This document shows positions 15,829-32,412 of a stretch of DNA of 33,832 nt, piece by piece. The DNA comes from Nocardioides sp. Its GTDB lineage: Bacteria; Actinomycetota; Actinomycetes; Propionibacteriales; Nocardioidaceae. The translations under genes and the position numbers were made by a program. Numbering within the stretch: the stretch's first letter is position 1; the number at the start of each line of letters is the position of its first letter. Where the stretch lies: positions 1 to 33,832 of the forward strand of contig NZ_JAEMSS010000026.1 in assembly GCF_016462705.1 (NCBI RefSeq). Direction: 5' to 3'. A model generated the notes under the pieces. The model worked only from the letters and a program-made list of their open reading frames with translations. It was not told the DNA's origin and searched no databases.

Positions 15829-15844
15829 CCTGGGCCACACGCCT

Positions 15845-15859
15845 AGGTCCTTTGGGCCT
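15845..15859 (+). promoter_or_regulatory. DosR-like box 1 (AGGTCCTTTGGGCCT)
   Basis: AGGTCCTTTGGGCCT is a near-palindrome of form AGGNCC-N3-GGNCCT and is followed by GACTCG. It aligns with three other boxes in the right half of the window. It lies 78 nt before the membrane-protein ATG at 15938. The assignment to a DosR-type regulator is inference from motif and gene content. Confidence 0.6.
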
Positions 15860-15937
15860 GACTCGTGGCGACTTCCGCCACTGGCCGCAGGGCCGGCGCG
15901 GAGAGAGGGTGGGTCTGGCAGGAAGGAGGTGGGGACG

Positions 15938-16306
15938 ATGAGGATCTCGTGGAAGGACCTCGTCGCAACTTTGCTGCTCGCCGCCATCGCGGTGCCCTAC
16001 ATCGGGTACCTCGTGCGCGACGAGATGCCGTTCATCGAGGATCCGCGCGGCATGGCAGCCACTGGTCTGCTGCTGGGCATCGCGGCGTTCCTGGTGATGC
16101 GGCAGGGCGACGCGATCGACCGGATCGGCAAGCTCGAGCTCGCGGCAGCCGGTGTCAGCCTGGCTCTGGGCGTCACAGCCCTGGTCGTGGCCGAGACCGC
16201 CGCGGCGGAAGCGATGCTGGCCGTGTTCATGGGTTCGCTCCTGATCGTGTGGATGCTGGAGCTCACCGACCACGTCGGGGTGCTCCACCACGCGCAGACG
16301 GGCTGA
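15938..16306 (+). CDS. Small four-segment membrane protein of unknown function
   Basis: The 122-residue product has four hydrophobic segments: ATLLLAAIAVPYIGYLV (about 9-25), AATGLLLGIAAFLVM (about 40-54), LAAAGVSLALGVTALVVAET (about 68-87) and AMLAVFMGSLLIVWMLEL (about 91-108). The ATG is supported by a good Shine-Dalgarno GGAAGGAGG 8 nt upstream. It is the first gene after box 1 and ends before a strong hairpin, so it looks like a single-gene unit. A short cytoplasmic RQGDAIDRIGKLE segment separates the second and third segments. I do not recognise a catalytic or transport motif. Confidence 0.8.
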   Translation: MRISWKDLVATLLLAAIAVPYIGYLVRDEMPFIEDPRGMAATGLLLGIAAFLVMRQGDAIDRIGKLELAAAGVSLALGVTALVVAETAAAEAMLAVFMGSLLIVWMLELTDHVGVLHHAQTG

Positions 16307-16321
16307 GCCCTCGCGGCACCC

Positions 16322-16354
16322 GGGGTGTCATCGGGCCTGGCCCGGTGACACCCC
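16322..16354. terminator. Strong hairpin terminator after the small membrane-protein gene
   Basis: 16322-16337 and 16339-16354 are complementary over 16 positions with one G-T pair. Realistically about 13 bp of stem would enclose a 7-nt loop. It lies 15 bases after the membrane-protein stop and before the P-type ATPase gene, so it probably isolates the two. No T-run follows. Confidence 0.75.
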
Positions 16355-16403
16355 TGCATCTCTGCTCGGGGCCCCGACATCCCCTGACGGAGGTCTCGGC
16401 AGG

Positions 16404-19049
16404 GTGGGACCAACGACTCTCCTGCGGCGCCACCGCCGCTGCGATCGTCGTCGTGTGGGCGTCGCGCGAGGAGTCCCGTCGGCTGCGGACGCCGTGGCGC
16501 CTGGCGGGCTCACCTCGACGGAGGCGGCGGAGCGGCTGCGCCGGGACGGGCCGAACCTCCTCCCGGAGCCCAGGCGGGCGTCGTCCCTGCGGCTCCTGGC
16601 CGCCCAGCTCACGCACCTGCTGGCCGTCCTGCTCTGGGTCGCCTCGGGCCTGGCGCTCCTGGCGGGCATGCCCGAGCTGGCGGCGGCCATCCTCGTCATC
16701 ATCGTCCTGAACGGCGGGTTCGCGTTCTGGCAGGAGCACCGGGCCGACCGCTCCGCCCAGCGGCTGCGGGCCCTGCTGCCGTCGGACACGCGGGTCGTCC
16801 GGGACGGCCGCACGGTCGTCGTCCAGGCCGCCGGGCTCGTCGTCGGCGACGTCGTCCTGCTCGAGGCCGGCGACCGGGTGGCCGCGGACCTCTCCGTCGT
16901 GTCGGCGCGCAGCCTCGGGATGGACGAGTCCATGGTCACCGGCGAGAGCGGTTCGGTCCCGCGCCACGAGGGTGATCGGCTGCTCGGGGGGAGCTTCGTG
17001 GTGCAGGGTGACGCGACCTGCCTGGTCGCGGCGACCGGCACGTCGACCACGCTTGCCGGCATCGCCGACCTCGCCGCGTCCGCCGAGCGGCCGCCGAGCC
17101 CGCTGACCCGCCAGCTGGACCGGGTGGTCCGCGTCCTGGCCGTCATCGCCACCGGGACGGGGGTCGGCCTGGGCGCCGTCGCGCTCGGTCTCGGTCTCAC
17201 GGCGACCGAGGCGTTCCTGTTCGGGGTCGGAGTCGCGGTGGCGCTGGTGCCGGAGGGGATGCTGCCCACGGTCACCCTGTCCCTGGCCCGCGGAGCGCAG
17301 AGCATGGCCGCTCGCCAGGCGCTCGTGCGGCGTCTCGACGCCGTCGAGACGCTGGGCGCCACCACGTTCATCTGCACGGACAAGACGGGCACGCTCACGC
17401 AGAACCGGATGAACGTGGTCGAGGTGGTCACGCCCGTCGGCTCGGTCACCGTCGAGGGCAACGGCTACGAGCCGGTCGCCACGGCGGTCGGTCCACGAGC
17501 GGCCCTGGACCGGTCCCGGCAGGCCGCCCTGGCCGCCGTCGCGTGCGTCACCGGTCGCGTCGTCGAGCGGACCGGGGAGCACGAGGGCTGGCAGGCGCTG
17601 GGCGACCCGATGGAGGCGGCCCTGCACTGCTTCGCGCTGCGACTGGGCGCGGAGGTCCCGGACCACGACGACACCCAGCGGCGGCCGTACTCGAGCGACC
17701 GGATGCTCACCTCGGCACTGGACCGGCACGGGGAGGTGTCCGTGCTGGGTGCGCCGGAGAGCGTGCTGCGCCGGTGCTCGGGGTCGAGCGAGGGCGCCGG
17801 CCTCGAGCAGCAGCTCGACCGGCTGACCACGAGCGGACGACGGGTCCTCGCGGTCGCGCGACGTACCTGGACCGGCGAGCCCTCCGCGGAGATGGAGGCC
17901 GGCCTCGAGCTCCTCGGCCTCGTAGCCCTCGAGGACCCGCCACGACCCGACGTGCGCGACGCGCTGGCCGCCTGCCGTGAGGCCGGCATCAGGGTCGCGA
18001 TGATCTCCGGGGACCACCCGCGGACCGCCGAGGCGATCGCCCGCCAGGTCGGGCTCCTGGGCGAGGGCGGCCTGGTCGTCACCGGTGACCAGCTCCCGGC
18101 GGACGACGCCGAGCTGGCGGCGCTCCTGGACCGGGACGACGGCGTCGTCGTGGCCCGGGTCTCCCCGGCGGACAAGTTCCGGATCGCCTCCTCGCTCCGC
18201 GGACGGGGGCACGTGGTCGCGATGACCGGTGACGGGGTCAACGACGCACCGGCCCTGCGGGAGGCGGACGTCGGGATCGCGATGGGCGCCAGCGGGTCCG
18301 ACGTCGCCCGCGAGGCCGCGGACCTGGTCCTCCTCGACGACCACTTCGCGACGATCGTCGCGGCCATCGAGCTCGGGCGGGCCACGTTCCGCAACATCCG
18401 CAGGTTCCTCACCTACCACCTCACCGACAACGTGGCCGAGCTGGCGCCGTTCGCGGTGTGGGCCCTCAGCGGAGGCAACTACCCGCTCGCCATCTCCGTC
18501 CTCCAGGTCCTCGCCCTCGACATCGGGACGGACCTGCTCCCGGCTCTGGCTCTGGGTGCCGAGCCTCCCCGCGACGGCATCATGCACGGCTCGTCGAGAC
18601 GCAGGCTGGTCGACCGTTCCCTGCTCGTCCGGGCGCTCGCCGTCCTCGGGCTCACCGAGGCCGTGCTGGCGCTGGGTGTGTGCACCATCGTGCTGACCTC
18701 CGGCGGCTGGACGTGGGGGGAGACGCCCTCCGCGGAGCTCCTCGCCGTCGCGTCGGGGTCGACCTTCGCCGCTATCGCGGTGGCGCAGATGGCCAACGCG
18801 TTCGCCTGCCGCAGCGCGGTCGTCCCGGCCTGGCGGATGCCGCTGCTCGGCAACCGGCTGGTCCTCGCGGCGGTGGCGGCCGAGCTGGTGCTGCTGGTGG
18901 TGTTCCTGGGCGTCCCGAGCCTGGCCGACCTCCTCGGCGGCAGCTGGCCGGCACCGCTGGGCTGGCTCGCCGCGGGTGCCGGGGCGGCGGTGCTGGTCCT
19001 CGTCGACGGGGCGGCCAAGCGCGCCCGCGCGAAGCACCGGCTCAGGTGA
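16404..19049 (+). CDS. P-type cation-transporting ATPase with type IIC-like ion-site motifs
   Basis: This 881-residue pump has the actuator TGES near residue 179, the phosphorylated Asp326 in DKTGT, and the hinge TGDGVND near 607. Residue numbers assume GTG 16404, which has GGAGG 9 nt upstream; later GTG codons are possible. Membrane helix 4 reads ALVPEGMLPTVTLSLA and helix 6 reads LDIGTDLLPALALGAE with D706, T709 and D710. The D-x-x-T-D pattern plus PEG(M/L)L resemble the Na,K-ATPase class (IIC) rather than SERCA. N-terminal cation-ATPase domain (LTSTEAAERLRRDGPNLLPEP) is present. No soft-metal CPC motif. The transported ion is unknown. Its end overlaps the convergent sulP gene by 8 bases. 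Confidence 0.93.
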   Translation: MGPTTLLRRHRRCDRRRVGVARGVPSAADAVAPGGLTSTEAAERLRRDGPNLLPEPRRASSLRLLAAQLTHLLAVLLWVASGLALLAGMPELAAAILVIIVLNGGFAFWQEHRADRSAQRLRALLPSDTRVVRDGRTVVVQAAGLVVGDVVLLEAGDRVAADLSVVSARSLGMDESMVTGESGSVPRHEGDRLLGGSFVVQGDATCLVAATGTSTTLAGIADLAASAERPPSPLTRQLDRVVRVLAVIATGTGVGLGAVALGLGLTATEAFLFGVGVAVALVPEGMLPTVTLSLARGAQSMAARQALVRRLDAVETLGATTFICTDKTGTLTQNRMNVVEVVTPVGSVTVEGNGYEPVATAVGPRAALDRSRQAALAAVACVTGRVVERTGEHEGWQALGDPMEAALHCFALRLGAEVPDHDDTQRRPYSSDRMLTSALDRHGEVSVLGAPESVLRRCSGSSEGAGLEQQLDRLTTSGRRVLAVARRTWTGEPSAEMEAGLELLGLVALEDPPRPDVRDALAACREAGIRVAMISGDHPRTAEAIARQVGLLGEGGLVVTGDQLPADDAELAALLDRDDGVVVARVSPADKFRIASSLRGRGHVVAMTGDGVNDAPALREADVGIAMGASGSDVAREAADLVLLDDHFATIVAAIELGRATFRNIRRFLTYHLTDNVAELAPFAVWALSGGNYPLAISVLQVLALDIGTDLLPALALGAEPPRDGIMHGSSRRRLVDRSLLVRALAVLGLTEAVLALGVCTIVLTSGGWTWGETPSAELLAVASGSTFAAIAVAQMANAFACRSAVVPAWRMPLLGNRLVLAAVAAELVLLVVFLGVPSLADLLGGSWPAPLGWLAAGAGAAVLVLVDGAAKRARAKHRLR

Positions 19050-20727
19050 CCGGCGCCGGCTCGTGCTCGATGCGCGCCGCGTGGACGCGCGCGTGCGCGA
19101 TCGCCTCGGGTGTGGTGTCGAACAGGTGGCGCTCGTGGGCGAGCCGGCCGTAGACGCCCAGCTCGCGGAGCACCTGCTCGTGGTGCTGCTGGACGCCGGA
19201 CAGCAGGACCGTGACGTGACGGTGCTCGAGGCGGCTGATCGTGTCGGCGAGGACATGGGCGCCGGTGGCGTCGATGGCCGTGACCCGGGACATCCTCAGG
19301 ATCACCACCCGTACCCGGGTCACGTCGGTGAGCTCGAGCAGGAAGTCGTGGGCCGCGGCGAAGAACAGCGGCCCGTCGAGACGGTAGGCGACGATGTGCT
19401 CGTCCAGGAGGGACCGCTCCTCGTCGCCGTGGTCAGCCTCGTCCAGGGGCATCTCCTCCAGCCGCGCCGAACGAGCCGCCTCCCGGAGCGCGAAGAAGCC
19501 CGCGACCACCAACCCGACGAGGACCGCCGTCACCAGGTCGACGACGATCGTCGCAGCGGCGGTGACGGCCAGGACGACGGCGTCGCCGCGCGTCGAGCGG
19601 AGGAGCGCCGCCAGGCTGGACACCCGGACCATCTGCACGGCGGTGGCGACGAGGACCCCGGCCAGCGCGGCCCGCGGGATGTCCCCGACCCATCGGGCGG
19701 CCACCAGCACCACGGCCAGGAGCAGCACCGCGTGGGTCAGGGCGGCCAACCTCGACGCCGCCCCGGACCGGACGTTGACCGCGGTCCGGGCGATCGCCGC
19801 GGTGGCCGGGATCCCGCCGAAGAGGGGCGCGGCCAGGTTGGCCAGGCCCTGCCCGACGAGCTCGCGGTCGGAGTCGTGACGCTGACCGACGCTCATGCCG
19901 TCGGCGACGGTGGCCGAGAGCAGGCTCTCCAGGGCCGCGAGCGCGGCGACGGCGACGGCCGGCAGGAGCAGGGCGTCGAGGTCTGCCCAGGGCACGTCGG
20001 GGAGCGAGGGGCCCGGCAGGCTGGCCGGGATGTGGCCGATGGTCGCCGCGTCCCAGTCGAACGCCGAGGTCGCCAGGGTCGCGAGGACCACGGCGGCGAG
20101 GGACCCGGGCAGCAGGGGCACGACCCGGGCGGACAGCAGGACCACGACGACGACCCCTGCGGCGATCCCGAGGGGCACCCAGTGGGGATCGTCCGCCCAG
20201 GCCCGCGCGGCGCGGGCGGCGAGGACCAGCACCCGCTCCGCGTGCACGTCCGTCCCGAGGGCGGCGGGCACCTGCTGCAGCGCGATGATGGCCGCGATGC
20301 CGACCGTGAAGCCCTCCACGACCGGGACCGGCACGTAGCGGATGAACCGGCCGGCACCCGCAGCGCCCAGCCCGACGAGGATCAGCCCGGCCAGCAGCCC
20401 GACGACGAGCACCCCGTCGGGCCCGTGGGTCGCGATGATGGGGACCAGGACCACCGTCATCGCTCCGGTGGGACCGCTGACCTGGACCCGGCTCCCGCCG
20501 AAGACCGCAGCCACCGCACCGGCGACGATCGCCGTGACCAGCCCGGCGGCCGCCCCCATGCCCGAGCTGACCCCGAAGCCGAGGGCGAGCGGCAGGGCGA
20601 CCAGACCGACCATGAGGCCGGCGGTCAGGTCGCGGGCCGGCCGGGCCGCCGTCCAGTCCGAGCGCCGCGGCAGCAGCCTGCCGGTCCGGGCCAGTGCGGC
20701 GCCGGCGGCCTGGGCGGCTGCGCTCAC
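19042..20727 (-). CDS. SulP-family anion transporter with STAS domain
   Basis: SulP carriers move sulfate, bicarbonate or related anions. The protein (561 residues from GTG 20727, which overlaps the arsR stop as GTGA) begins with the family's DLTAGLMVGLVALPLALGFGVSSGMG motif and has about 10-12 membrane segments, including GPTGAMTVVLVPII and the conserved GGIPATAAIARTAVNVRSGA. A C-terminal STAS domain starts near residue 430 (IVAYRLDGPLFFAAAHDFLLEL) and includes LRMSRVTAIDATGAHVLAD. The tail ends with a variable stretch. Co-transcription with an ArsR-type regulator suggests repressor control. Sulfate versus bicarbonate cannot be decided by sequence reading. Confidence 0.93.
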   Translation of the reverse strand: MSAAAQAAGAALARTGRLLPRRSDWTAARPARDLTAGLMVGLVALPLALGFGVSSGMGAAAGLVTAIVAGAVAAVFGGSRVQVSGPTGAMTVVLVPIIATHGPDGVLVVGLLAGLILVGLGAAGAGRFIRYVPVPVVEGFTVGIAAIIALQQVPAALGTDVHAERVLVLAARAARAWADDPHWVPLGIAAGVVVVVLLSARVVPLLPGSLAAVVLATLATSAFDWDAATIGHIPASLPGPSLPDVPWADLDALLLPAVAVAALAALESLLSATVADGMSVGQRHDSDRELVGQGLANLAAPLFGGIPATAAIARTAVNVRSGAASRLAALTHAVLLLAVVLVAARWVGDIPRAALAGVLVATAVQMVRVSSLAALLRSTRGDAVVLAVTAAATIVVDLVTAVLVGLVVAGFFALREAARSARLEEMPLDEADHGDEERSLLDEHIVAYRLDGPLFFAAAHDFLLELTDVTRVRVVILRMSRVTAIDATGAHVLADTISRLEHRHVTVLLSGVQQHHEQVLRELGVYGRLAHERHLFDTTPEAIAHARVHAARIEHEPAPVT

Positions 20728-21059
20728 GGGAGGGCGTCGGTCGTCAGCTCGGCCCCGAGCTCGCCCTTCACGGCGATCATCCCGGACAGGATCTTCCGGG
20801 CGACCAGGAGCAGGTCCCGGACCTCGGGGACGCTGACCGAGTAGACGACCTCGCTGCCGAGCCGGTGCGAGACCACCATCGACGTACGGCGGAGCACCGC
20901 GAGCTGCTGGGACAGGTTGCTCGGCTCGATGTCGATCCGCTCGAGGAGCTCGTGCACCGCGTGGTCGCGTTCGGACAGCAGCTCGAGGATCCGGATGCGC
21001 GCCGGGTGGCCGAGGGTCTTGAAGAGCTCGGCCTTGGCTTGGTAGAGGGGGACGCTCAT
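20724..21059 (-). CDS. ArsR-family transcriptional repressor
   Basis: The product is 111 residues from ATG 21059. It has the ArsR/SmtB winged helix: AELFKTLGHPARIRILELLSERDHAVHELLERIDIEPSNLSQQLAVLRRTSMVVSHRLGSEVVYSV, here with recognition helix SNLSQQLAVLRRTSMV. The ELCVCDL-type metal site is replaced by ELLERID, and there is no cysteine in the protein, so classical metal sensing through Cys is unlikely. The frame is open 12 residues further up, but those codons lie inside the operator region, and a TAGTCT hexamer ends 8 nt before the chosen ATG. It shares an operon with sulP. Confidence 0.92.
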   Translation of the reverse strand: MSVPLYQAKAELFKTLGHPARIRILELLSERDHAVHELLERIDIEPSNLSQQLAVLRRTSMVVSHRLGSEVVYSVSVPEVRDLLLVARKILSGMIAVKGELGAELTTDALP

Positions 21060-21063
21060 TGAG

Positions 21064-21106
21064 TTGAAGACTACACCACTTGCAAACATCTTCAAGTCGT
21101 GGTGTA
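21064..21106. promoter_or_regulatory. Interleaved dyads in the arsR / PEP carboxykinase divergent promoter
   Basis: Two perfect inverted repeats overlap: TACACCAC (21072-21079) with GTGGTGTA (21099-21106), and TTGAAGA (21064-21070) with TCTTCAA (21089-21095). On the minus strand TAGTCT (21073-21068) is a likely -10 ending 8 nt before the arsR ATG. On the plus strand TACCGT (21105-21110) is a possible -10 for the carboxykinase. ArsR-type repressors bind such spaced dyads. Confidence 0.65.
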
Positions 21107-21163
21107 CCGTCGGCGACGACGACCGCGAGCGACCTGACCGCGAACGACCTCGACAGGCAAGGG

Positions 21164-23011
21164 ATGACGATGACTGACGTGCGCACGGTGCTGGACGAGG
21201 CGGGGCTGACGAACCCGCGGGTGCAGGACTACGTCGCCCACTGGGCCGAGCTCACCGGAGCAGACCGCGTCGAGGTCGTCACCGCCGCCGACGACGCCCG
21301 GCTCGTCCAGGAGGCGCTCGACGCGGGCGAGCTGCTGCCCGCGGGCCGGGGGCGCTACTACTCCCGCAGCCACTCCAAGGACACGGCGCGCTCGGAGGAG
21401 CGGACCATCGTGGCGACCAGCCGGCCCGAGGACCGCGGCCTCTACAACAACTGGCGCCCGGCCGCCGAGATCACCCCGGTGGTCACGGAGCGGATGCGCG
21501 GTGCCTCGGCCGGCAAGACGATGTACGTGATCCCCTACCTGATGGCCCCGCCCGGCAACGTGCTCTCGCCGTGGGCGACCGGCGTCGAGCTGACCGACGC
21601 CCGCACCGTCGTGCTGCACATGATCCGGATGTCTCGCGTCGGCGTCGAGCACCTCCAGGACCTCGAGGACCCCGACTCCTTCGTCCGGGCGGTGCACGTG
21701 ACCGGCGACCTCGACTCCCTCGGCCACGGCACCCCCGACGACCAGCGCTGCTTCGTCACGGTCGCGGACGAGCGGACGATCCTGCACTACGGGTCGTCGT
21801 ACGGCGGCAACGCCCTGCTCGGCAAGATCGCCCACGGACTGCGTCAGGCGGCGTACGACGGCTGGGTGACCGACACCTTCCTCGGCGAGCAGTACATGCT
21901 GATCGGCATCCACGACAAGGAGACCGGCAAGACGTCCCACATCTGCGGCGGGTTCCCGAGCGCATCGGGCAAGACCAACCTGGCGATGATGCTCGCGCCG
22001 GACGCGCTGGGCGACCGCTACCACGTCTCGTTCTACGGCGACGACATCGCGTGGCTGTGGGTCGACAAGACCGACGGCCGGCTCTACGGCATGAACCCGG
22101 AGTTCGGCGTCTTCGGCGTCGCCAAGGACACCAACGAGGGCACCAACCCGACCGCCCTCCACTCCGTCGACGAGGGGAGCGGGGCGATCTTCACCAACGT
22201 CGCCTACAACCCGGACACGCAGGAGGTCTGGTGGGAGGGGCGCACGCCCGAACCGCCGGCCGACACGGCCGGCTGGCTGGACTGGAAGGGCGAGCCGATC
22301 GCCGACCGCGAACCCGGGGACACCAGCCCGTGGGCGCACCCCAACAGCCGGTTCACCACCACCCTCGACAACGTCCCCAACATCGCCCCCGACTACAACA
22401 GCCCCCGGGGCGTCCCGATCGACGCCATCATCTTCGGCGGGCGCACCCGGGACCGCGAGCCGCTCATCCGCGCGATCACCGACCTCGCCGAGGGTGTCTA
22501 CGACGGTCTCACCCTGGGGGCGGAGGCCACCTCCGCCGCCGAGGGCGTCGAGGGGATGCTCCGCTACGACCCGATGTCCAACCGGCCGTTCATGGCGTAC
22601 GGCGAGGGCGACTACGCCGCGCACTACCTCAAGATCGTCGGAGCGGCCACCGACCAGCCGATCTTCGCCCACGTCAACTGGTTCCAGCGGGACCCGGAGG
22701 ACGGCCACTTCCTGTGGCCGGGCTACCGGGACAACCTGCGGCCGTTGCTGTGGCTGCTGCAGCTGCGCAACGGCGAGGTGAAGGGCCGGCAGACGCCGGT
22801 GGGCATCCTCCCGACGGAGGACGAGCTCAACCTCGAGGGTGTCGACATCACGCCCGAGGACCTCGAGACGATCCTGTCGATCGACGTCGCGCGCTGGCGC
22901 GAGGAGATGGGCTTCCGTCAGGCGCACCTCGAGGAGCTCCCCAACCTGCCCGAGGAGATCTGGGAGGCCCACCGCCGGGTGGCGAAGGCGCTGGAGGATC
23001 ACAGCGGCTGA
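21164..23011 (+). CDS. pckG: GTP-type phosphoenolpyruvate carboxykinase, sequence-variant form
   Basis: PckG interconverts oxaloacetate and phosphoenolpyruvate with GTP. The length (615 residues from ATG 21164, or 613 from 21170, which has AAGGG at better spacing) fits the family. Family segments are YGGNALLGKIAHGLRQA, FPSASGKTNLAMM, FYGDDIAWLWVD, MNPEFGVFGVAKDTNEGTNP, PIDAIIFGGRTRDREPLI and HVNWFQRDPEDGHFLWPGY. In classical enzymes the P-loop reads FPSACGKT; here the cysteine is Ser268. The helix usually reading LLGKKC(F/Y)ALR is LLGKIAHGLR, and the Phe-loop region (FLWPGFGEN) is altered to FLWPGYRDN. It may be a diverged paralogue with different kinetics. It is divergent from arsR-sulP. Confidence 0.9.
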   Translation: MTMTDVRTVLDEAGLTNPRVQDYVAHWAELTGADRVEVVTAADDARLVQEALDAGELLPAGRGRYYSRSHSKDTARSEERTIVATSRPEDRGLYNNWRPAAEITPVVTERMRGASAGKTMYVIPYLMAPPGNVLSPWATGVELTDARTVVLHMIRMSRVGVEHLQDLEDPDSFVRAVHVTGDLDSLGHGTPDDQRCFVTVADERTILHYGSSYGGNALLGKIAHGLRQAAYDGWVTDTFLGEQYMLIGIHDKETGKTSHICGGFPSASGKTNLAMMLAPDALGDRYHVSFYGDDIAWLWVDKTDGRLYGMNPEFGVFGVAKDTNEGTNPTALHSVDEGSGAIFTNVAYNPDTQEVWWEGRTPEPPADTAGWLDWKGEPIADREPGDTSPWAHPNSRFTTTLDNVPNIAPDYNSPRGVPIDAIIFGGRTRDREPLIRAITDLAEGVYDGLTLGAEATSAAEGVEGMLRYDPMSNRPFMAYGEGDYAAHYLKIVGAATDQPIFAHVNWFQRDPEDGHFLWPGYRDNLRPLLWLLQLRNGEVKGRQTPVGILPTEDELNLEGVDITPEDLETILSIDVARWREEMGFRQAHLEELPNLPEEIWEAHRRVAKALEDHSG

Positions 23012-23122
23012 CCCGGGGCGGCCGAAGGTCAGCCCGAGACGGGACCTCGACCTCTGCCGGCTGCGCCCCGGCGCGGCTGATGCTGGACGGGCCAGTTCCC
23101 GGCGAGGCACGAGGTGGAGACG

Positions 23123-24505
23123 ATGAGCAACCCGGTCCTGACCTTCCTCGGCGCCACCGGCGCCGTGACCGGCAGCAAGTTCCTGGTCGACACCACCGAC
23201 TCGCGCACGCTGGTCGACGCCGGGCTCTTCCAGGGCCCACCGGACCTGCGCCGCCGCAACTGGGAGGAGTTCCCGGTCGCGGCATCGTCGCTGGACGCGG
23301 TCACCGTGAGCCACGCGCACCTGGACCACTGCGGGCACCTGCCCCGGCTCGTGCGCGAGGGGTTCGCGGGTCCGATCTACTGCTCGCCCGAGACGGCCGA
23401 GCTCGTGGAGATCGTGCTGCGCGACAGTGCGCACCTGCAGGAGGAGGACGCACAGCACGCGAACGCCGGCGGCTACTCCAAGCACCGTCCGGCTCTCCCG
23501 CTCTACGACCGGGAGGACGTGGAACGGACCTTGCCGTTGCTGCGACCGGTCGGGTTCGGGGAGACGACCCAGGTGGCCGCGGGAGCCAGGGTGACGCTGC
23601 ACCCGGCCGGCCACATCCTCGGCTCGGCGACCGTGCTCCTCGAGACCGACGGACGCCGCACGCTGTTCAGCGGGGACCTCGGCCGGCCGAGCCATCCGCT
23701 GCTCCGGCCCCCGGACCCGCCGCCCGCCGTCCACACCGTGGTGGTCGAGTCGACCTACGGCGGCCGGACCCACGAGCCGGCCGGGCCGGACACGCTCGGC
23801 GCGGCGGTCCGGCGGGCCGCCCACCGTGGTGGGTCGGTGCTGATCCCGGCCTTCGCGGTGGATCGGACCGAGCTGGTCATCCTGGCCATCCACCGGCTGA
23901 TGGAGGAGGGCAGGATCCCGAGGCTCCCGGTCTTCGTCGACAGCCCGATGGCGGTCGCCGCGCTGCACGTCTACCGACGCGCGCTGGGCGCCCCGTCCCC
24001 GCAGCTCCGTCCCGACAGCGGGGAGCTACGGGCCGCTCTGGACTCCGTCGAGGTGCACGGGGTGGGGGACGTCGCGGGCTCGATGCGCCTCAACCGGCCC
24101 GCGATGCCGTCGATCGTGATCTCCGCCTCCGGGATGGCCACCGGCGGCCGGGTCATCCACCACCTGGCCCATCAGCTGCCGGACCCACGCAACGTCGTGG
24201 TGCTCACCGGCTACCAGGCGGTGGGGACGCGGGGCCGGCAGCTCCAGGAAGGCGCCCGGCAGGTGAAGATCCACGGACGCTACGTCCCGGTGCGTGCCGA
24301 GATCGTCGACGTGCCGGACTTCTCGGTGCACGCCGACAGCGACGAGCTGTGCGCCTGGCTGGCCTCGGCGCCGGAGCCTCCGGAGGTCGTGTACGTCGTG
24401 CACGGCGAGCCCGACTCGTCCGAGGCCCTGGCTGTCCGGATCAGGGACGAGCTCGGCTGGTCCGCCGTCGTCCCGAAGCGGGGCGAGCGGGTGCGGCTCG
24501 ACTGA
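23123..24505 (+). CDS. Metallo-beta-lactamase fold protein with beta-CASP domain
   Basis: Members of this group (RNase J/CPSF-73-like) process or degrade RNA, though some bacterial ones are uncharacterised. ATG 23123 is chosen because GAGGTGGAG lies just upstream; the in-frame GTG at 23114 falls in that Shine-Dalgarno. The 460-residue product has the first motif HAHLDHCGH (HxHxDH, residues 64-69), HPAGHILGSATVLLE, SGDLGRPSHP (a metal-ligand Asp) and ESTYGGR. The beta-CASP insertion continues with IPAFAVDRTELVILAIHRL, VFVDSPMA, ISASGMATGGRVIHHL and a final FSVHADSDEL. It starts 111 bases after pckG. Target RNA unknown. Confidence 0.92.
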   Translation: MSNPVLTFLGATGAVTGSKFLVDTTDSRTLVDAGLFQGPPDLRRRNWEEFPVAASSLDAVTVSHAHLDHCGHLPRLVREGFAGPIYCSPETAELVEIVLRDSAHLQEEDAQHANAGGYSKHRPALPLYDREDVERTLPLLRPVGFGETTQVAAGARVTLHPAGHILGSATVLLETDGRRTLFSGDLGRPSHPLLRPPDPPPAVHTVVVESTYGGRTHEPAGPDTLGAAVRRAAHRGGSVLIPAFAVDRTELVILAIHRLMEEGRIPRLPVFVDSPMAVAALHVYRRALGAPSPQLRPDSGELRAALDSVEVHGVGDVAGSMRLNRPAMPSIVISASGMATGGRVIHHLAHQLPDPRNVVVLTGYQAVGTRGRQLQEGARQVKIHGRYVPVRAEIVDVPDFSVHADSDELCAWLASAPEPPEVVYVVHGEPDSSEALAVRIRDELGWSAVVPKRGERVRLD

Positions 24506-24524
24506 CCGGGCTCGGTGGCTTCTC

Positions 24525-25472
24525 TCAGTCGATCGGTGCCAGCGTCTCGAGGAGCCGGTTGACCCGCCGCTCGCGCCGCATCTCCTTGGCGGTGACGGGC
24601 GACTCGGGCGTGACGAGCACCGGTGCGGTCGCGTGGGCCAGGGCGGCGCGGGCGACCGGGCCCAGGTGGGTGCGCAGGGGGAGCAGGTGGTGACGACGGC
24701 CGATCACGAGGAGGTCCGAGACCTCGGCCGCGTCGAGGACCGCCTCGGCCGGCGGGGCATGCCGCACGTCGACGGCGACCTCGACATCGGGGAACGCCGA
24801 GCGGAAGGGGGCCAGGAGGGGGTGCAGCTCGGTCCGCCAGCGGTCGGCCCACTCCGCGCGCATCGCCTCGTCGACGACCTCCGCCTCGAAGCCCGAGTCC
24901 AGCCACCACGCGTGCAGCACGACGAGCGACGCGCCGAGCTTGCGGGCCTCCGCGAAGGCGGCGCGCAGGACCATCGGGGCCTCGATGGGGTCCTGGACCG
25001 CGGCGGTCACGACGGCGGTCGGGTGCGCGCGTGGCGACCACCCCTCGGGCACCGAGACGACCGGCCCGTGGGCCCGGCCGGCGACGCTCTGGACCACGGA
25101 GCCGCCGACGAGGCGGTGCAGGCGTCCGAACGCTCGGTGCTCCAGCACGAGGAGCTCCTCGTCACTGGTGCGCTTGGTCAGCTCGTCGACGACCCTGCCC
25201 ATGCTGACCAGCTCGGACGTCACGGCGACCTCGTCGCCCGCGAGGCGCTCGGCCTCGGCCACCGCGCGGGCCAGGGTCGCGCGGGCACCCTCCAGCGCTT
25301 CGCCGTACAGGCCGGCGTACGCCTCGCTGGACGGGAGCTGCAGGACGTGCACCAGGTGTACCGGCCGCGACCAGCGCCGGGCCTCCTCGACGGCGAACCC
25401 GAGGGCGGATCCGGAGCCTTCGGCGCCGACGCCCACGACGATCGGGGTGCTCGGGGTGCTCGGGGTGGTCAT
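24525..25472 (-). CDS. Tandem universal stress protein (UspA family), copy 1
   Basis: The 315-residue product contains two UspA domains. Domain 1 begins IVVGVGAEGSGSALGFAVEEARRW and domain 2 begins near residue 155 (TAVVTAAVQDPIEAPMVLRAAFAEARKLGA). The ATP-loop region of domain 1 reads LLVLEHRAFGRLHRLVGGSV and of domain 2 LLVIGRRHHLLPLRTHLGPV; neither matches the classical G-2X-G-9X-G(S/T) motif. ATG is supported by GAGGA 8 nt upstream. It follows the other minus-strand stress gene by 35 bases, so the two form an operon reading away from the box at 26468. Confidence 0.92.
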   Translation of the reverse strand: MTTPSTPSTPIVVGVGAEGSGSALGFAVEEARRWSRPVHLVHVLQLPSSEAYAGLYGEALEGARATLARAVAEAERLAGDEVAVTSELVSMGRVVDELTKRTSDEELLVLEHRAFGRLHRLVGGSVVQSVAGRAHGPVVSVPEGWSPRAHPTAVVTAAVQDPIEAPMVLRAAFAEARKLGASLVVLHAWWLDSGFEAEVVDEAMRAEWADRWRTELHPLLAPFRSAFPDVEVAVDVRHAPPAEAVLDAAEVSDLLVIGRRHHLLPLRTHLGPVARAALAHATAPVLVTPESPVTAKEMRRERRVNRLLETLAPID

Positions 25473-25507
25473 GGCTGGTTCCTCTCTGGGCAGGCTGGTC
25501 GGCCCCG

Positions 25508-26410
25508 TCACTCGGCCGGCTGCTCGGGCACCACGACGACGGTGGTCCGGGCGCGCTCCAGGACGGCGAGGGCGCAGGACGAGTACAGGAGCCGCGACCA
25601 GCCGCTGACGTCGCTGCGCCCGACGACGACCAGCTCGGCCTCGGGTGCCTCGTGGAGCAGGCACTGGTCGACGAGTCCCTGCGACAGCTGCAGGTCGACC
25701 TCGACGTCCGGGTACTTCTCGCCCAGACCCGCCACGGACTCCGAGAGGAGCATCCGCAGCTCGACGACGTCGCTGGGTTCCGCCTGGACACCGGCAGCGC
25801 CCTGCGTGACGAGCGTGGGATCGACGAAGCTGTGCATGACCACGAGGGGGAGGTGGTGCAGCGACGCCTGCTGGAAGGCGAACTCGACGACGGGCAGCGA
25901 GGCCACGCTCCCCTCGGCGCCGACGAGGACCTCGTGCCGACCGTCGTGCGGCTCCTGAGGGCGGCACACGACCACCGGACACCGGGCCAGCCGGGCCACG
26001 GACTGGCTGACCGACCCGAGCACCAGGGAGCGCAGGGGACCGCGCCCCCGGGAGCCGAGCACGACGACGTGGGCCGAGGCCGAGGCCTCGACGAGCGCGT
26101 CCCTGGCGTCGGTCCCGAGCACGTGGGTCCGCACCTCGAGGCCCGGCACCTCGAGGACGGCGATCTCCCGAGCCTCGGCGGCCAGCGTCTCGCCGGCCTC
26201 GTGCAGGGCTCGGGTGAGCACGCTCTGGTCCAGGCCGGGGGTTCCCAGCCACGCGAGCTCGCCGACCCCGACCCGGCCGTAGGCGTGCACGATGTCCAGG
26301 GGGCGCCCTTCCAGGTGTGCCTGCCGGGCCGCCCACACGACGGCCCGCTCGGCGTGGGCCGAGCCGTCGGTGCCGACGACGATGCTGCCTGCGGGGATGT
26401 CTCTGGTCAC
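25508..26410 (-). CDS. Tandem universal stress protein (UspA family), copy 2
   Basis: The start GTG 26410 gives 300 residues with two UspA domains. Domain 1 (SIVVGTDGSAHAERAVVWAARQA) has the only classical ATP-binding loop of the four stress proteins here: VVVLGSRGRGPLRSLVLGSVSQSV, fitting G-2X-G-9X-G-S. Domain 2 has a degenerate loop, VVVGRSDVSGWSRLLYSSCALAV. Such tandem Usp proteins bind ATP and help regulate growth arrest in mycobacteria. It is the first gene of the minus-strand pair, divergent from the next stress-protein gene across a DosR-like box. Confidence 0.93.
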   Translation of the reverse strand: MTRDIPAGSIVVGTDGSAHAERAVVWAARQAHLEGRPLDIVHAYGRVGVGELAWLGTPGLDQSVLTRALHEAGETLAAEAREIAVLEVPGLEVRTHVLGTDARDALVEASASAHVVVLGSRGRGPLRSLVLGSVSQSVARLARCPVVVCRPQEPHDGRHEVLVGAEGSVASLPVVEFAFQQASLHHLPLVVMHSFVDPTLVTQGAAGVQAEPSDVVELRMLLSESVAGLGEKYPDVEVDLQLSQGLVDQCLLHEAPEAELVVVGRSDVSGWSRLLYSSCALAVLERARTTVVVVPEQPAE

Positions 26411-26467
26411 GTCTCCACTCTCGTTCGCCCTCCCCGCCGGGCGTACAGGCTTGCGGCCCGCCGGCCC

Positions 26468-26481
26468 GGGACCTAGGGCCC
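26468..26481. promoter_or_regulatory. DosR-like box 2 between divergent stress-protein genes (GGGACCTAGGGCCC)
   Basis: GGGACCTAGGGCCC is a near-perfect palindrome (GGG-A/C-CC-TA-GG-G/T-CCC) at the middle of the 126-base divergent region. It is 57 bases upstream of the minus-strand Usp GTG and 55 bases before the plus-strand Usp ATG, so one site can serve both directions. It aligns with boxes 1, 3 and 4. Confidence 0.7.
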
Positions 26482-26536
26482 TGCCGACGGGGGAGGCGGA
26501 CGACAAGCATCGAGGTAGTGACCGAAGGAGGCGTCC

Positions 26537-27478
26537 ATGAACAGCCCCGAGACTGGTCCGGTCGTCGTCGGCGTCGACGGCACCCCCGGGAGCGCCGGCG
26601 CCCTGCGCTACGCGGTCGCCGAGGCGGCCCGCCGAGGAGCCTCGCTGCGCCTCGTGCACGTGCTGCCCGTGACCGCCCCCGTCTGGCCGGGCGTGCCCAT
26701 GAGCGGTGTGGGAGACAGTGAGCTCCGCGACGTCGCCACCTCGATCCTCGAGGAGTCCGTCGCCGCGGTGCGTGACCTCGCGCCCGACCTCGAGGTGGTG
26801 ACCCGCCTGAGCGCCGGGTCCCGGAGCGGAGCGGTCGTCGAGGCCTCCGAGGACGCGCAGCTCGTGGTCGTGGGACGGGAGACCCAGCACGGTGTCGACC
26901 GGATCCTGGTCGGCGCGGTCACCGCGGCGGTGGCCGCCCACGCCCACTGCGGCGTGGCCGTCGTGCCGTCGTTCTGGTCGGGTGACCACCCGCGCGCCCG
27001 CGTCGTGGTCGCGATGAAGTCCCGGGCCAACGCCCACGCCGTCCTCACCGAGGCCTTCTCCCAGGCGCGCCGGCGAGGCGCGAGCCTCACCATCGTGACC
27101 GCCTGGGAGCTGCCCGACCCCTACCTCGACCGGATCGAGGTGCGCACGCACTCCGACGACTGGGAGGAGGAGGGTCGCAGTGTCATCGAGGACGTGCTCA
27201 CGAGCTGGCGTCGCGAGTACCCCGACGTGGCCGTCGACGTCCGGGTCCAGCACGGCCGGGCCGCCGAGGTGCTGCTCGCCGCGAGCCGCGACAGCGACCT
27301 GCTCGTCCTCTCGCGCCGGCACCGCGCCATCCCGCCCTACGGCCACCTCGGCGGCGTCGCCCACGCGATCCTCAGGGCGAGTGACGTCCCCGTCGTCGTG
27401 GTCCCCTTCACCGACGCGCACGACGACCCGGCCGAGGACGTGCTCGTGCTCGAGGAGTCGGGCGCCCCGGTCAAGTGA
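26537..27478 (+). CDS. Tandem universal stress protein (UspA family), copy 3
   Basis: The 313-residue product starts at ATG 26537 with AAGGAGG 5 nt upstream. Domain 1 begins VVVGVDGTPGSAGALRYAVAEAARRGAS and has the loop LVVVGRETQHGVDRILVGAVTAAV. Domain 2 begins near residue 157 and has LLVLSRRHRAIPPYGHLGGVAHAIL. Neither loop is the classical ATP-binding one. It is divergent from the minus-strand stress genes, shares the central box, and its stop overlaps the GTG of the second P-type ATPase, so the two are coupled. A similar pairing, Usp plus P-type ATPase (Rv1996 and CtpF), occurs in the DosR regulon of Mycobacterium tuberculosis. Confidence 0.93.
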   Translation: MNSPETGPVVVGVDGTPGSAGALRYAVAEAARRGASLRLVHVLPVTAPVWPGVPMSGVGDSELRDVATSILEESVAAVRDLAPDLEVVTRLSAGSRSGAVVEASEDAQLVVVGRETQHGVDRILVGAVTAAVAAHAHCGVAVVPSFWSGDHPRARVVVAMKSRANAHAVLTEAFSQARRRGASLTIVTAWELPDPYLDRIEVRTHSDDWEEEGRSVIEDVLTSWRREYPDVAVDVRVQHGRAAEVLLAASRDSDLLVLSRRHRAIPPYGHLGGVAHAILRASDVPVVVVPFTDAHDDPAEDVLVLEESGAPVK

Positions 27479-29997
27479 CGACCGGGCCCGTGACCGGCCG
27501 GACCGCACGCGGCCTGACCGGTGACGAGGCGGCCCGGCGGCTGGTGGAGCACGGCCCGAACGAGCTGCCCCCGGAGGTGTCGGTCAGTCTCCTCGCCCGG
27601 ATCGGGCAGCAGCTGCGTGACCCGATGATCCTGCTGCTGTGCGGTGCCCTGGTGCTGGTCGTCGCCGTCGGAGACCACGCCGACGCGGTGATCATCGCCG
27701 CGGTGATCGTGCTCAACACCACCATCGGAGTGGTCCAGGACGTACGCGCCCAGCACGCGGTGGACGCCCTCTCGCGGATGGCGGCCCCCCGGGCCCACGT
27801 GTGGCGAGACGGTGCCCTGGTCGAGGTGGCCGCCGGGGACGTCGTCCCCGGGGACACGGTCCGCCTCGAGGCCGGCGACATCGTGCCTGCCGACCTGCTC
27901 CTGGTCGAGGCGTCCTCGCTCGAGGTGGACGAGTCGACGATGACAGGGGAGTCGATGCCGGTCCCGCGAGCCCTCGCGGAGGAGGTGGTCTCGGGCACGG
28001 TCGTCACCCGCGGCCGGGGCATCGGACGCGTGGTCCGCACCGGCGCCGACAGCGGGCTCGGCAGGATCGCGGCGCTCGTGGCCGGTGCGGGGCTGCGACC
28101 GACGCCCCTGCAGCTGCGCCTGGCCCGGCTGTCCCGTCAGCTGGTCCTCGTCACCAGCATCATCTGCCTCGGCGTGTTCGGGCTCGCGATGGCCCAGGGG
28201 ATGTCCTGGACGGCGGCGTCGGTGCTGGCGGTGAGCCTCGGCGTGGCCGCCGTCCCCGAGTCGCTGCCCGCGGTGGTGACGATCTCACTGGCCCTGGGAG
28301 CCCGCCGGATGGCGCGACGCTCGGCGGTCGTCCGCCGGCTGCCCGCCGTGGAGACCCTGGGCTCGGTGACCGTCCTGGCCTCGGACAAGACCGGCACCCT
28401 GACCCAGGGCGTGCTGACCGCACGCCAGCTGTGGACCCCCGCCGGCACCTGCGAGGTCAGCGGGACGGCGTACGCCGTCGACGGGCGCGTCGAGGGGTCG
28501 CCGGAGGCACGCGCCGAAGCCGTCGGGCTGCTGCGCAACGCCGCCCTCTGCAACGACGCGTCCCTGAGAGCGGGCGACGAGCCGGGGGAGTGGCTCGCGG
28601 TGGGCGACCCCTTCGACGTGGCGCTGCTCGTGGCCGCGGCAAAGGGTGGTCTCGACCTCGACTCCCTCGCTCACTGGAACCGGATCGACGAGTCGCCGTT
28701 CGACAGTGACGTCGGGTTCTCCCGCACGGTGCACAGCGGCCCGGACGGCGTCGAGGTGGAGGTCCTGAAGGGTGCCCCGGAGCGACTGCTCCCGATGCTC
28801 GCACCGGGGCCCGTGGCGGAACAGGCCCGGGTCCAGGCCGAGCTGTGGGCCGCCCAGGGCCATCGGGTCCTGGCCGTCCTCGAGGACCGCCGGGCCGTGG
28901 GGCTGGTGGCGGTGACCGACCCTCCCCAGCCGGACGCGGCCCAGGTGGTCGAGGACTGCCACGCCGCCGGCATCAGGATCGTCCTGGTCACCGGCGACCA
29001 CCCCGCCACCGCCCGGGTGGTGGCCGAGGAGCTGGGCATCCTGTCCGACGACGGGTTGGTCGTGGAGGGCGAGGCCGTGGCCCGGGGTGAGCACCTGGAC
29101 CTGGTGGAGCAGATCGACGTCTACTCCCGGGTCCGGCCCGAGCAGAAGGTCGGCATCGTCGACGCGTGGCAGGCCCACGGTGACGTCGTCGCGATGACGG
29201 GAGACGGGGTCAACGACGCGCCGGCCCTGCGCCGTGCCGACATCGGCGTGGCCATGGGGCGCAGCGGGACCGAGGTGGCCCGACAGGCGGCCGACCTGGT
29301 CCTCCTCGACGACGACCTGCGCACCCTGGTCGTCGCGGTGGGGGAGGGGCGGCGGATCCACGCGAACATCCGGACGTTCCTGCGCTACGGCCTCGCCGGC
29401 GGTCTGGCCGAGATCGTGGTGCTGCTGACCGCCCCGCTCCTCGGTCTCCCGATCCCGCTCACCCCGGCCATGATCCTGTGGGTCAACATGGTGACGCACG
29501 GGCTGCCCGGGGTCGCGTTCGGCGGCGAGCCGCTCGACCCCGACCTCATGCGCAGGCCCTCTCCTCCGCCGACCCAGTCCGTGCTGGACCGAGGCCTCAT
29601 CGGCCAGATCGTCGCGGCCGGCGCCCTGCTCTCGGTCGCGTCGCTCGGTGCCGGCCTCCTCGCCTCCCACCTGGGCCAGGACGTCCGGACGGCGGTGTTC
29701 CTCACGCTGGGGCTCGGGCAGCTGGCCGTGGCGCTGGCCCTGCGGGCGCCGCGCCGCGGCTGGGACTGGCGTGAGCGCGGTCTCGAGATCGCGGTCCTGC
29801 TGGCCGGGGCCTGCCAGCTCACCGGTGTCGCGATCCCAGGGGTGCGCGAGCTGCTCGGGACCGAGCCTCTCGGGACGGGCATGACCGTGGCGCTGGTGGG
29901 CATCGCCGCGCTCCCTGGCGTGCTCGTCGCGCTCTCGCGCCGACCATGGTCCCGGCGGCAGGGGACCTTCGCCTCCGGACCTGGACCGGTGGCCTGA
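27475..29997 (+). CDS. P-type cation ATPase, SERCA-like with altered helix 6
   Basis: This 840-residue pump starts at GTG 27475, overlapping the stress-protein stop. Catalytic features are TGES at 157-160, phosphorylated Asp304 in DKTGTLTQ and TGDGVND near 580. Helix 4 reads [19 protein letters not shown] with Glu262 in the place of SERCA's Glu309. Helix 6 reads [25 protein letters not shown] has N-x-x-T-D, and here the Asp position is His675. The family matches calcium-type (IIA) pumps and mycobacterial CtpF-related enzymes. The ion cannot be assigned; the His may alter selectivity. It is in an operon with stress protein copy 3. Confidence 0.93.
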
Positions 29998-30010
29998 GGA
30001 CCCTGGGGGC

Positions 30011-30706
30011 ATGGGCCCTCCCCTGGGACGGCAACGACGCGCGGGCTCGCCGAAGCGGGTCGCGGCGGCGGTCCTCGCTGCCGCGGTGACGCTCGGCGGC
30101 TGCTCCGTGGACAGCCCGATGGGCGAGCGCCACCGGTCCGGACGGACCCTGGGCGGCACGCCCGGCTCCGCCATGCCCGGCTCCGCCATGCCCGGCTCCG
30201 CCATGCCCGGCGCCATGGGAGGAGGCCTCGGCATGCGCGCTGTCCAGGGCATGGGCGGGATGCACGCGACGATGGCCCCTCGGGACGAGGCCGACTACCT
30301 GCTGACCATGCTGCCGCACCACCGCGAGGCCATCGTCGCGGCCGAGTCGCTCACGCGCTCGCCGCACCCCGAGCTGCGGCGCCTCGGGCGGGCGATCCGG
30401 ACGAGCCAGTCCCGGCAGGTGCGGATGATGGAGCGTTGGGTCGCCCGCTGGTACCCGCAGGAGACACCGTCCATCGACTACCAGCCGATGATGAGCGACC
30501 TGACGGGTCTGAGCGGGGACGAGCTCGACCGGACCTTCCTCACCGAGATGGTCCACCACCACATGATGGCCGTGATGATGTCCCGCCACCTGGTGAGAGC
30601 CGGCCTGGTCCGTCATCCGGTGGTGGCCGGCCTGGCCGAGTCGGTGATCCGCGAGCAGAGCGCCGAGATCCGCCTGATGCGGCAGTGGCTGCTGCAGTGG
30701 AGCTGA
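30011..30706 (+). CDS. DUF305 lipoprotein, Met/His-rich
   Basis: The 231-residue product has a signal peptide with basic start (RQRRAGSPKR), hydrophobic core VAAAVLAAAVTLGG and lipobox LGGC with Cys31, so it should be lipid-anchored on the outside of the cell membrane. A linker contains three exact copies of PGSAM (see 30161-30205) and a Met/Gly-rich stretch. The DUF305 domain follows, with two His-Met motifs: ADYLLTMLPHHREAIVAAE and TFLTEMVHHHMMAVMMSRHLV. DUF305 is a ferritin-like four-helix family often linked to copper. Shine-Dalgarno match is weak (GGGGG very close to the ATG). It begins 13 bases after the ATPase stop and may be in that operon. Confidence 0.88.
   Translation: MGPPLGRQRRAGSPKRVAAAVLAAAVTLGGCSVDSPMGERHRSGRTLGGTPGSAMPGSAMPGSAMPGAMGGGLGMRAVQGMGGMHATMAPRDEADYLLTMLPHHREAIVAAESLTRSPHPELRRLGRAIRTSQSRQVRMMERWVARWYPQETPSIDYQPMMSDLTGLSGDELDRTFLTEMVHHHMMAVMMSRHLVRAGLVRHPVVAGLAESVIREQSAEIRLMRQWLLQWS
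30161..30205 (+). repeat. Three tandem 15-bp repeats inside the DUF305 gene
   Basis: CCCGGCTCCGCCATG occurs three times in a row (30161-30175, 30176-30190, 30191-30205), then a diverged partial copy. It encodes PGSAM repeats in the linker. The perfect identity at DNA level suggests recent slippage; the copy number may vary between strains. Confidence 0.95.
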
Positions 30707-30732
30707 GCTCCTGAGAGCGGTCCCGCCAACTG

Positions 30733-30747
30733 GTGACCAAGGGCCCT
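30733..30747 (+). promoter_or_regulatory. DosR-like box 3 (GTGACCAAGGGCCCT)
   Basis: GTGACCAAGGGCCCT is followed by GATTCGCGG and lies 73 nt before the flavoprotein start. A TAGCGT hexamer (30771-30776) lies 23 nt downstream as a possible -10, which would place the box centre near -40, the usual position of an activator site. It aligns with the other boxes with one change in the left arm. Confidence 0.65.
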
Positions 30748-30820
30748 GATTCGCGGTGCCTCGACCGACCTAGCGTCGTCCCACACAGACCGGGCACAAC
30801 GGTCCCGATCGGGAGAGACG

Positions 30821-31276
30821 GTGGTGGCGATGGCGATGCCGACGGACGAGGACCCGGTGGTCGAGCTGAGTGTCGAGGAGTGCTGGGACCTGCTCGAGGA
30901 GGAGCAGTTCGGCCGGCTGGCCTACCGGCTCGTCGACGAGGTCCACCTGGTGCCGATCAACTACGTGACCGACGGCAGGTCGCTGTTGTTCCGGACCGGT
31001 TCCGGCAACAAGCTGCTCGCCGCAGCACTGCACTCGGACGTGGCCCTCGAGATCGACTGGCACGACGATCTCTCGGCCTGGTCGGTCGTCGCCCGAGGCC
31101 GGCTTCGTCGCCTCGGTGAGGACGAGGCCGCACGGGTCGAATCGCTTCCGCTGCAACCGTGGGTCGAGACCCTCAAGTACGACGTCGTCGAGCTCGCCGC
31201 CGATGTCGTCACGGGCCGCCGGTTCCGGCTGCACCGGCCGGAGCCGGACCACCAGCTGTCGCGGTCCCAGGGGTAG
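30821..31276 (+). CDS. Pyridoxamine 5'-phosphate oxidase-fold flavoprotein
   Basis: The 151-residue product has the FMN-binding split-barrel of the pyridoxamine oxidase/NimA-like family: VEECWDLLEEEQFGRLAYRLVDEVHLVPINYVTDGRSLLFRTGSG is the conserved first half (only parts quoted: FGRLAYRLV, PINYVTDGRSLLFRTG) and ALEIDWHDDLSAWSVVARGRL the second. Start is uncertain: GTG 30821, GTG 30824 (best spacing to GGGAGAG) or ATG 30830. Homologues such as Rv3129 belong to the DosR regulon. The substrate is unknown; members use FMN or F420. It is preceded by box 3 and followed by box 4. Confidence 0.85.
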   Translation: MVAMAMPTDEDPVVELSVEECWDLLEEEQFGRLAYRLVDEVHLVPINYVTDGRSLLFRTGSGNKLLAAALHSDVALEIDWHDDLSAWSVVARGRLRRLGEDEAARVESLPLQPWVETLKYDVVELAADVVTGRRFRLHRPEPDHQLSRSQG

Positions 31277-31313
31277 CCCGGGTGCTGGTTGTGGTCCGTC
31301 GACTCCCAGCGCG

Positions 31314-31328
31314 AGGACCAAGGACCCT
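31314..31328 (+). promoter_or_regulatory. DosR-like box 4 (AGGACCAAGGACCCT)
   Basis: AGGACCAAGGACCCT is followed by GATGCG and lies 49 nt before the ATG of stress-protein copy 4. It matches box 3 at 12 of 15 positions and also shares the trailing GAT.CG with boxes 1 and 3. Confidence 0.65.
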
Positions 31329-31377
31329 GATGCGCCCAGCGGGCGCGGTGTGATCGTCGAGGAAAAGGAGGTCCGTC

Positions 31378-32376: not shown

Positions 32377-32412
32377 CGTCAGCCGGGCGAGAGCAGAGTC
32401 CGGAGCAGGACC

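Follow-up and report, generated by a model that had tools for sequence, protein, structure and literature searches.

DosR of Mycobacterium tuberculosis controls genes for Usp, CtpF, Tgs1 and pyridoxamine-oxidase-like proteins. A stringent mycobacterial DosR consensus is GGGACTTNNGNCCCT, and the same source describes Mycobacterium smegmatis DosR with this consensus, −10 ANNNT promoters and measured hypoxic induction (PMC6448022). In Streptomyces coelicolor, the OsdR/OsdK system has a 16-nt palindrome with the consensus AGGGCCGATCGGCCCT; CGGGACCTTCGGCCCT and AGGGACCTTCGGCCCC are among the predicted sites, and Usp, pyridoxamine 5'-phosphate oxidase, pyruvate phosphate dikinase, Zn-alcohol dehydrogenase and nitrate reductase among the predicted targets (PMC5069765). 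For Nocardioides, our search of the open-licence literature found no prior account of DosR/DevR.

The Nocardioides system described here is like M. tuberculosis DosR (DevR)/DosS/DosT in its DosR orthologue with an identical recognition helix, in a kinase of the GAF-heme type and in a palindromic GGGAC-N4-GNCCC box close to the promoter. Its predicted targets include kinds that we take to be shared with M. tuberculosis DosR, namely Usp, P-type ATPase, pyridoxamine-oxidase-like, WS/DGAT (Tgs), CBS and nitroreductase genes. It differs in the inner position of the box, which is C or G here and T there, and in that some predicted targets here are central-metabolism enzymes (PPDK, phosphoketolase, Zn-alcohol dehydrogenase). 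It resembles M. smegmatis DosR in its consensus and −10 promoters, although the inner base there is again T, and hypoxic induction is measured there and predicted here (PMC6448022). With OsdR/OsdK it has in common the 16-nt palindrome, predicted sites such as CGGGACCTTCGGCCCT and the kinds of predicted target, which we count as a likeness, whereas at positions 5 and 7, where A and C dominate here around a W-W centre, the OsdR consensus reads C and G (PMC5069765).

The window analyzed, a single stretch of 33,832 nt, holds four boxes (26467, 30732, 31313, and 16405) that, judged from sequence, are very probably sites of the genome's own DosR/DosS-like system, which would switch on a stress island at low oxygen.

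The stress island and its boxes

The window is an entire contig (C194) of a 4.32-Mb assembly that comprises 305 contigs and is 88% complete; gene starts and calls are those of a simple caller trained on window genes. The stress island (24525–33720) consists of eight genes by Pfam (Table 1), and to its left lie FMN reductase, 122-aa protein, second P-type ATPase, SulP, ArsR-type, PEPCK and beta-CASP genes. The island ATPase is 65–72% identical to those of Nocardioides islandensis, N. halotolerans, and N. agariphilus, and 51% identical to that of Actinopolymorpha alba. Separately, a tRNA-Pro (anticodon GGG) occupies positions 12099–12174, and the open reading frames that overlap it are probably spurious.

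Table 1. Boxes and genes of the window, with matrix ranks and scores or the basis of each assignment.
Feature	Position	Strand	Remark
Box of the sequence-only reading, AGGTCCTTTGGGCCT	15845–15859
Box of the sequence-only reading, GGGACCTAGGGCCCT	26468–26482
Box of the sequence-only reading, GTGACCAAGGGCCCT	30733–30747
Box of the sequence-only reading, AGGACCAAGGACCCT	31314–31328
DosR-type box, CGGGACCTAGGGCCCT	26467–26482		between two divergent Usp genes; rank 1, score 18.6
DosR-type box, GAGGACCAAGGACCCT	31313–31328	+	before Usp and WS/DGAT genes; rank 2, score 16.3
DosR-type box, GGTGACCAAGGGCCCT	30732–30747	+	before pyridoxamine-oxidase-like gene; rank 3, score 13.2
DosR-type box, TGGGACCAACGACTCT	16405–16420	+	before second P-type ATPase; rank 4, score 12.8
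Weak, possibly degenerate (distal) DosR-type site, AGGTCCTTTGGGCCT	15844–15859	+	before 122-aa protein gene
122-aa protein, possible target of 15844 box	15938–16306	+	without Pfam match
Second P-type cation ATPase, predicted target of 16405 box	16455–19049	+	Pfam; start from gene caller
Usp, second gene of leftward unit	24525–25472	−	PF00582
Usp, first gene of leftward unit	25508–26410	−	PF00582; start from simple gene caller
Usp	26537–27478	+	PF00582
P-type cation ATPase	27475–29997	+	E1-E2_ATPase, Cation_ATPase_N/C (Pfam)
DUF305 protein	30011–30706	+	PF03713
Pyridoxamine 5'-phosphate oxidase-like protein	30821–31276	+	PF12900
Usp	31378–32376	+	PF00582
WS/DGAT (wax ester synthase/diacylglycerol acyltransferase; Tgs1 type of enzyme)	32413–33720	+	PF03007, PF06974

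A sequence-only reading of this DNA had proposed four matching DosR-like boxes lying 49–78 nt before gene starts. A pattern search of the window found all four sequences in place, and the measured distances agree (77 nt; 54 and 56 nt for the divergent pair; 73 nt; 49 nt). Loose versions of the pattern, in so GC-rich a window, occur at about the chance level (12 matches vs. 7.1 expected, 28 vs. 26.7, and 41 vs. 58.4). Because they are not clearly commoner than chance, an independent motif test was needed.

A motif derived from dosR upstream regions

DosR was searched for across 147 genomes of the genus at a cut-off of E ≤ 1e-60, and at least 132 of them have a match among the matches listed. 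Of the 30 genomes with the best matches our own was left out, and the dosR upstream regions of the remaining 29, all relatives, served as training set for an expectation-maximisation search for a 16-bp palindrome. The motif recovered before dosR in these relatives, AGGGACCWWGGTCCCT, has a log-likelihood of 186.8, against 24.7–31.0 in five shuffled sets in which base composition alone was preserved. The best upstream match scores at least 12 in 28 of 30 dosR loci (29 of the 30 being training loci), and the own dosR box (C211:5563), which lies outside the training set, scores 22.0. At the inner position the genus motif has C in 66%, G in 25%, and T in 7%. For DosR in other families, 29 loci from the phylum were retrieved and 17 of them parsed; six of the 17 carry a box (shuffle p ≤ 0.03; the inner base is C in two, G in three, and T in one), and the other 11 carry none.

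When the window is scored with this matrix, four positions reach at least 12—all of them intergenic—compared with 0.55 expected from 60 Markov simulations, and the highest simulated score (17.3) is exceeded by the best window position alone (18.6). Positions scoring at least 8 number 14 against 5.6 expected and fall mostly within genes; since lower scores are thus also in excess, the simulation somewhat underestimates the background. Three of the boxes from the sequence-only reading (26467, 31313, and 30732) emerge as strong sites, while the fourth, at 15845, scores weakly and is no more than a possible site. The box at 16405–16420 was absent from that reading; it would fall inside the second ATPase gene if the upstream GTG at 16404 were the start. 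Upstream of the PEPCK gene in the window, the matrix scan gave no box at threshold.

DosR and its kinase in the same genome

The genome encodes a DosR of 217 aa (L087:4854–5507 on C211) whose best PDB match is DevR 3c3w (E 3e-69), aligned over residues 9–214 with the phospho-site Asp54 kept. Its recognition helix, AEKTVKNYVS, is identical to that of M. tuberculosis DevR, and EKT(V/I)KNYVS is kept in 30/30 genus dosR loci. The residues aligned with K179, K182, and N183, which we take to be the DNA contacts of DosR, are identical as well. The same genome encodes a DosS/DosT-like kinase with two GAF stretches, HisKA_3 and HATPase. Its first GAF matches the DosT GAF 2vzw (E 5e-48) and the DevS 2w3d heme domains and keeps the HPPM histidine, presumably the heme ligand. 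The dosR and dosS homologues belong to the same assembly as the window and lie on another contig, where a pattern match between the kinase and a pyridoxamine-oxidase-like gene (C211:4375) has a matrix score below 12.

Matches across the genome

A genome-wide search, suggested by the sequence-only reading as a check, bore that reading out for close matches and not for looser ones. Specifically, the pattern GGGACCWWNGGCCCT occurs with at most one mismatch at 16 places, two of them window boxes, and 16/16 are intergenic although intergenic sequence makes up 11% of the examined bases; for 14 of the 16 a called start lies no more than 200 nt away, and one of these overlaps it. The reversed pattern, as a control, gave seven such places, 1/7 intergenic. 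With up to two mismatches there is no enrichment (92 matches vs. 149 in the reversed control), and among the first 14 of the 76 two-mismatch places 2 are intergenic and 12 lie inside genes. As this total falls below the control, information is carried by the close matches alone. The matrix, applied at a threshold of 12 to 14 own-genome stretches chosen by pattern, Usp or kinase matches, placed 13 of 15 matches in intergenic sequence (6.9% of bases).

Beyond the window, the predicted targets comprise dosR and a CBS/nitroreductase unit (C211); Usp and acetyltransferase/acyl-CoA ligase genes (C121); PPDK plus a pyridoxamine-oxidase-like gene (C102, box L092:7052); phosphoketolase and Fe-S protein genes, with an acetate kinase gene near phosphoketolase (C139, box L099:6552); a second WS/DGAT gene (C76, box L089:11268); a zinc alcohol dehydrogenase gene (C25, box L090:878); and CBS and pyridoxamine-oxidase-like genes (C182).

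Distribution across the genus

Across the 147 genus genomes, 416 exact copies of the site GGGACSWWSGTCCC were counted, compared with 18 of its reversed control. With dosR status taken from the matches listed, the 132 dosR-bearing genomes average 3.04 exact sites (401 in all) and the other 15 genomes average 1.0 (15 in all), a difference with a Mann–Whitney p of 4e-5. One genome, G117, contains six exact sites, yet no DosR of its own reaches E 1e-60 among the matches listed; it has either a more divergent DosR, a gap (the genome is 91% complete), or another reader of the site.

Boxes also recur at the island's kinds of locus. At 30 loci with ATPase orthologues, 18 of 19 matches scoring at least 12 are intergenic (7.6% of bases), three being the window's own, and boxes are present in 14 of the 30 loci, own locus counted. 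At 30 loci with pyridoxamine-oxidase orthologues, 23 of 25 matches scoring at least 11 are intergenic (15.3% of bases), two being the window's own, and boxes are present in 19/30, again with the own locus. Of the 42 other genomes that have a match to the island ATPase, we took the 25 relatives whose full-length matches were best and set aside 17 with weaker or partial ones; in 13 of these 25, the ATPase lies within 50 kb of a dosR match, among the matches listed.

Phosphoketolase is a different case: a box is found upstream in 5 of 30 loci, own locus included, compared with 1/30 in the downstream control, which rules the gene out as a genus-wide DosR target. In N. islandensis and N. agariphilus, boxes precede GAPDH; pyruvate:ferredoxin oxidoreductase genes stand behind GAPDH in the former, and a box precedes class I fructose-bisphosphate aldolase in the latter. 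By Pfam, the genes behind the boxes of these two species (L101:13498, 21007; L104:13807, 22187) are GAPDH, MFS transporter and class I aldolase genes.

Promoter geometry

Box geometry was studied in 132 unique boxes scoring at least 14, of which 123 are intergenic and 112 could be oriented; dosR loci, including some used to train the matrix, contributed 43 of the 132, and loci retrieved by pattern contributed 33. Of the 112 oriented boxes, 28 have a −10-like nAnnnT at offset 39, counted from the box start (27/110 without those of the window), over a background of about 2.3 per offset, and offset 40 is weakly enriched (6/110). None of the 28 belongs to a dosR promoter. The GA(C/T)xCG tail that had been seen after three of the window's boxes does not extend to the wider set, in which positions 17–22 after the box all carry ≤0.12 bit (112 oriented boxes).

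In the window, the corresponding elements are AAGCAT at offset 39 for the 26467 box (+ side), GATCGT and TAGCGT at offset 40 for the 31313 and 30732 boxes, and GATCGT at offset 39 for the 16405 box; on the leftward Usp side of the 26467 box there is no −10-like element at offsets 36–45. Since a −10 element usually lies about 7 nt before the transcription start, the center of a class-one box would be near −42.5. Judged by spacing alone, the box would overlap the −35 region, the window's four good boxes being placed at 39 or 40 (+ side). At 16405 the GTG start (16455) is 7 nt downstream of the element, a distance also found in 5 of 33 other boxes with nAnnnT at 39 or 40, and the predicted transcript is possibly a leaderless mRNA.

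A second class, with TAnnnT at offsets 61–63, accounts for 17 of the 112 boxes, and 13 of the 17 stand before dosR. The second-class dosR promoters (L106–L134) have a strong box, the TAnnnT at 61–63 and a start codon a few nt downstream. Weak G and C signals between box and TAnnnT may represent a second, degenerate box. For M. tuberculosis, close-packed boxes have been described in which the near one overlaps the −35 (PMC3029386).

The box at 15845

The remaining box of the sequence-only reading may be a chance dyad, or part of a hairpin that ends the FMN-reductase gene, rather than a DosR site. It scores 6.6 (rank 21, near background), its half-sites are three bases apart rather than two, and nothing −10-like stands at offsets 36–45, where the first promoter class would have its element. 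Moreover, the left half of the dyad pairs within a 9-bp hairpin (15827–15849; fold z −2.1) directly after the FMN-reductase stop, though this hairpin is without a T run.

Against this stands the evidence from relatives. The 122-aa protein downstream has matches in 3 of 147 genomes, own included, and thus two orthologues, and the 200 nt upstream of each have their highest matrix score at the equivalent place (77 nt and score 7.2 in L203; 73 nt and 4.6 in L204). When columns were shuffled 5000 times, the summed score of the aligned columns was reached 3 times with the three sequences and 31 times in 5000 with two. Likewise, the sole nAnnnT at offsets 34–69 stands at 62 (GAGGGT, own), 60, and 61, close to the spacing of the second promoter class, though shared ancestry could explain part of this agreement. 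Because the best position before both orthologues coincides, the 15845 box may be a real degenerate site. We put the chances of a weak, distal DosR-type site at about even, and would give the chance-or-hairpin reading one chance in two.

Discussion

The sequence-only reading had proposed a DosR-type regulon, and this proposal is now strongly supported by the genome's own DosR and DosS-like proteins and the occurrence of the same box before dosR, as well as by the proximity of ATPase and dosR (13/25, among the matches listed) and the intergenic position of 16/16 close matches. As the boxes match the motif found before dosR in relatives, the own DosR/DosS-like system likely turns the cluster on. 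In the mechanism we propose, the GAF-heme kinase would sense the loss of O2 (or NO/CO) and phosphorylate DosR at the conserved Asp, and a DosR dimer centered near −42.5, over the −35 region, would recruit RNA polymerase. Three boxes would then drive the eight island genes in four units: two Usp genes leftward; Usp, P-type ATPase, and DUF305; the pyridoxamine-oxidase-like gene; and Usp with WS/DGAT. The 16405 box would drive the second P-type ATPase, and the 15845 box could act as a weaker, distal site of the same DosR type.

The CC in place of CT in the left half of the boxes had been taken to indicate a possibly distinct regulator specificity, and a different regulator with a specificity of its own (inner CC/GG, not CT/AG) might then control the island. 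Such a regulator would account for the scarcity of inner T in the genus motif (7%, against 66% C and 25% G) relative to a stringent mycobacterial consensus, GGGACTTNNGNCCCT (PMC6448022), and G117, with sites and no dosR at the cut-off among the matches listed, points the same way. However, the CC-type box also precedes dosR itself, the DosR recognition helix is unchanged, and the OsdR study, in whose assays OsdR bound M. tuberculosis promoters, has GGGACC-type predicted sites that include CGGGACCTTCGGCCCT and AGGGACCTTCGGCCCC (PMC5069765). Since inner CC/GG thus also occurs in predicted Streptomyces OsdR sites, a separate specificity is not supported, and we regard control by a different regulator as highly unlikely. 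Given the unchanged recognition helix, the most plausible account of the inner C-G pair flanking the W-W centre is drift within the lineage, which would make the box a lineage version of what appears to be one DosR/OsdR site type.

The least probable reading, which can be dismissed, is that the whole set of boxes consists of GC-rich palindromes arising by chance in a genome of high GC content. In its favor, the loose patterns occur in the window about as often as chance predicts, and 12/14 inspected two-mismatch matches lie inside genes. It is opposed by the independent matrix that ranks three of the boxes first to third in the window, the 16/16 close own-genome matches in intergenic sequence, the 416 vs. 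18 exact sites in the genus, and the fixed −10 spacing.

A DosR/OsdR-type regulon, as predicted here, is well supported as a new example of a known form of control and is ordinary in kind. DosR boxes before PPDK, phosphoketolase, and alcohol dehydrogenase genes in this genome, and before GAPDH and aldolase genes in the two named relatives, suggest control of anaerobic energy metabolism, though the phosphoketolase box recurs in few (5/30) of the loci compared. We tentatively raise the possibility, which we hold somewhat short of an even bet, that the Nocardioides DosR switch has been extended from dormancy genes to anaerobic energy metabolism while the inner base pair drifted and the recognition helix stayed unchanged.

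Sequence evidence thus supports a DosR regulon in a genus common in soil, and direct predictions follow from the matrix, from the −10 spacing and from the list of targets. A non-pathogenic Nocardioides could serve to test the DosR switch—its box geometry, its leaderless-looking promoters, and the drift of its inner base.
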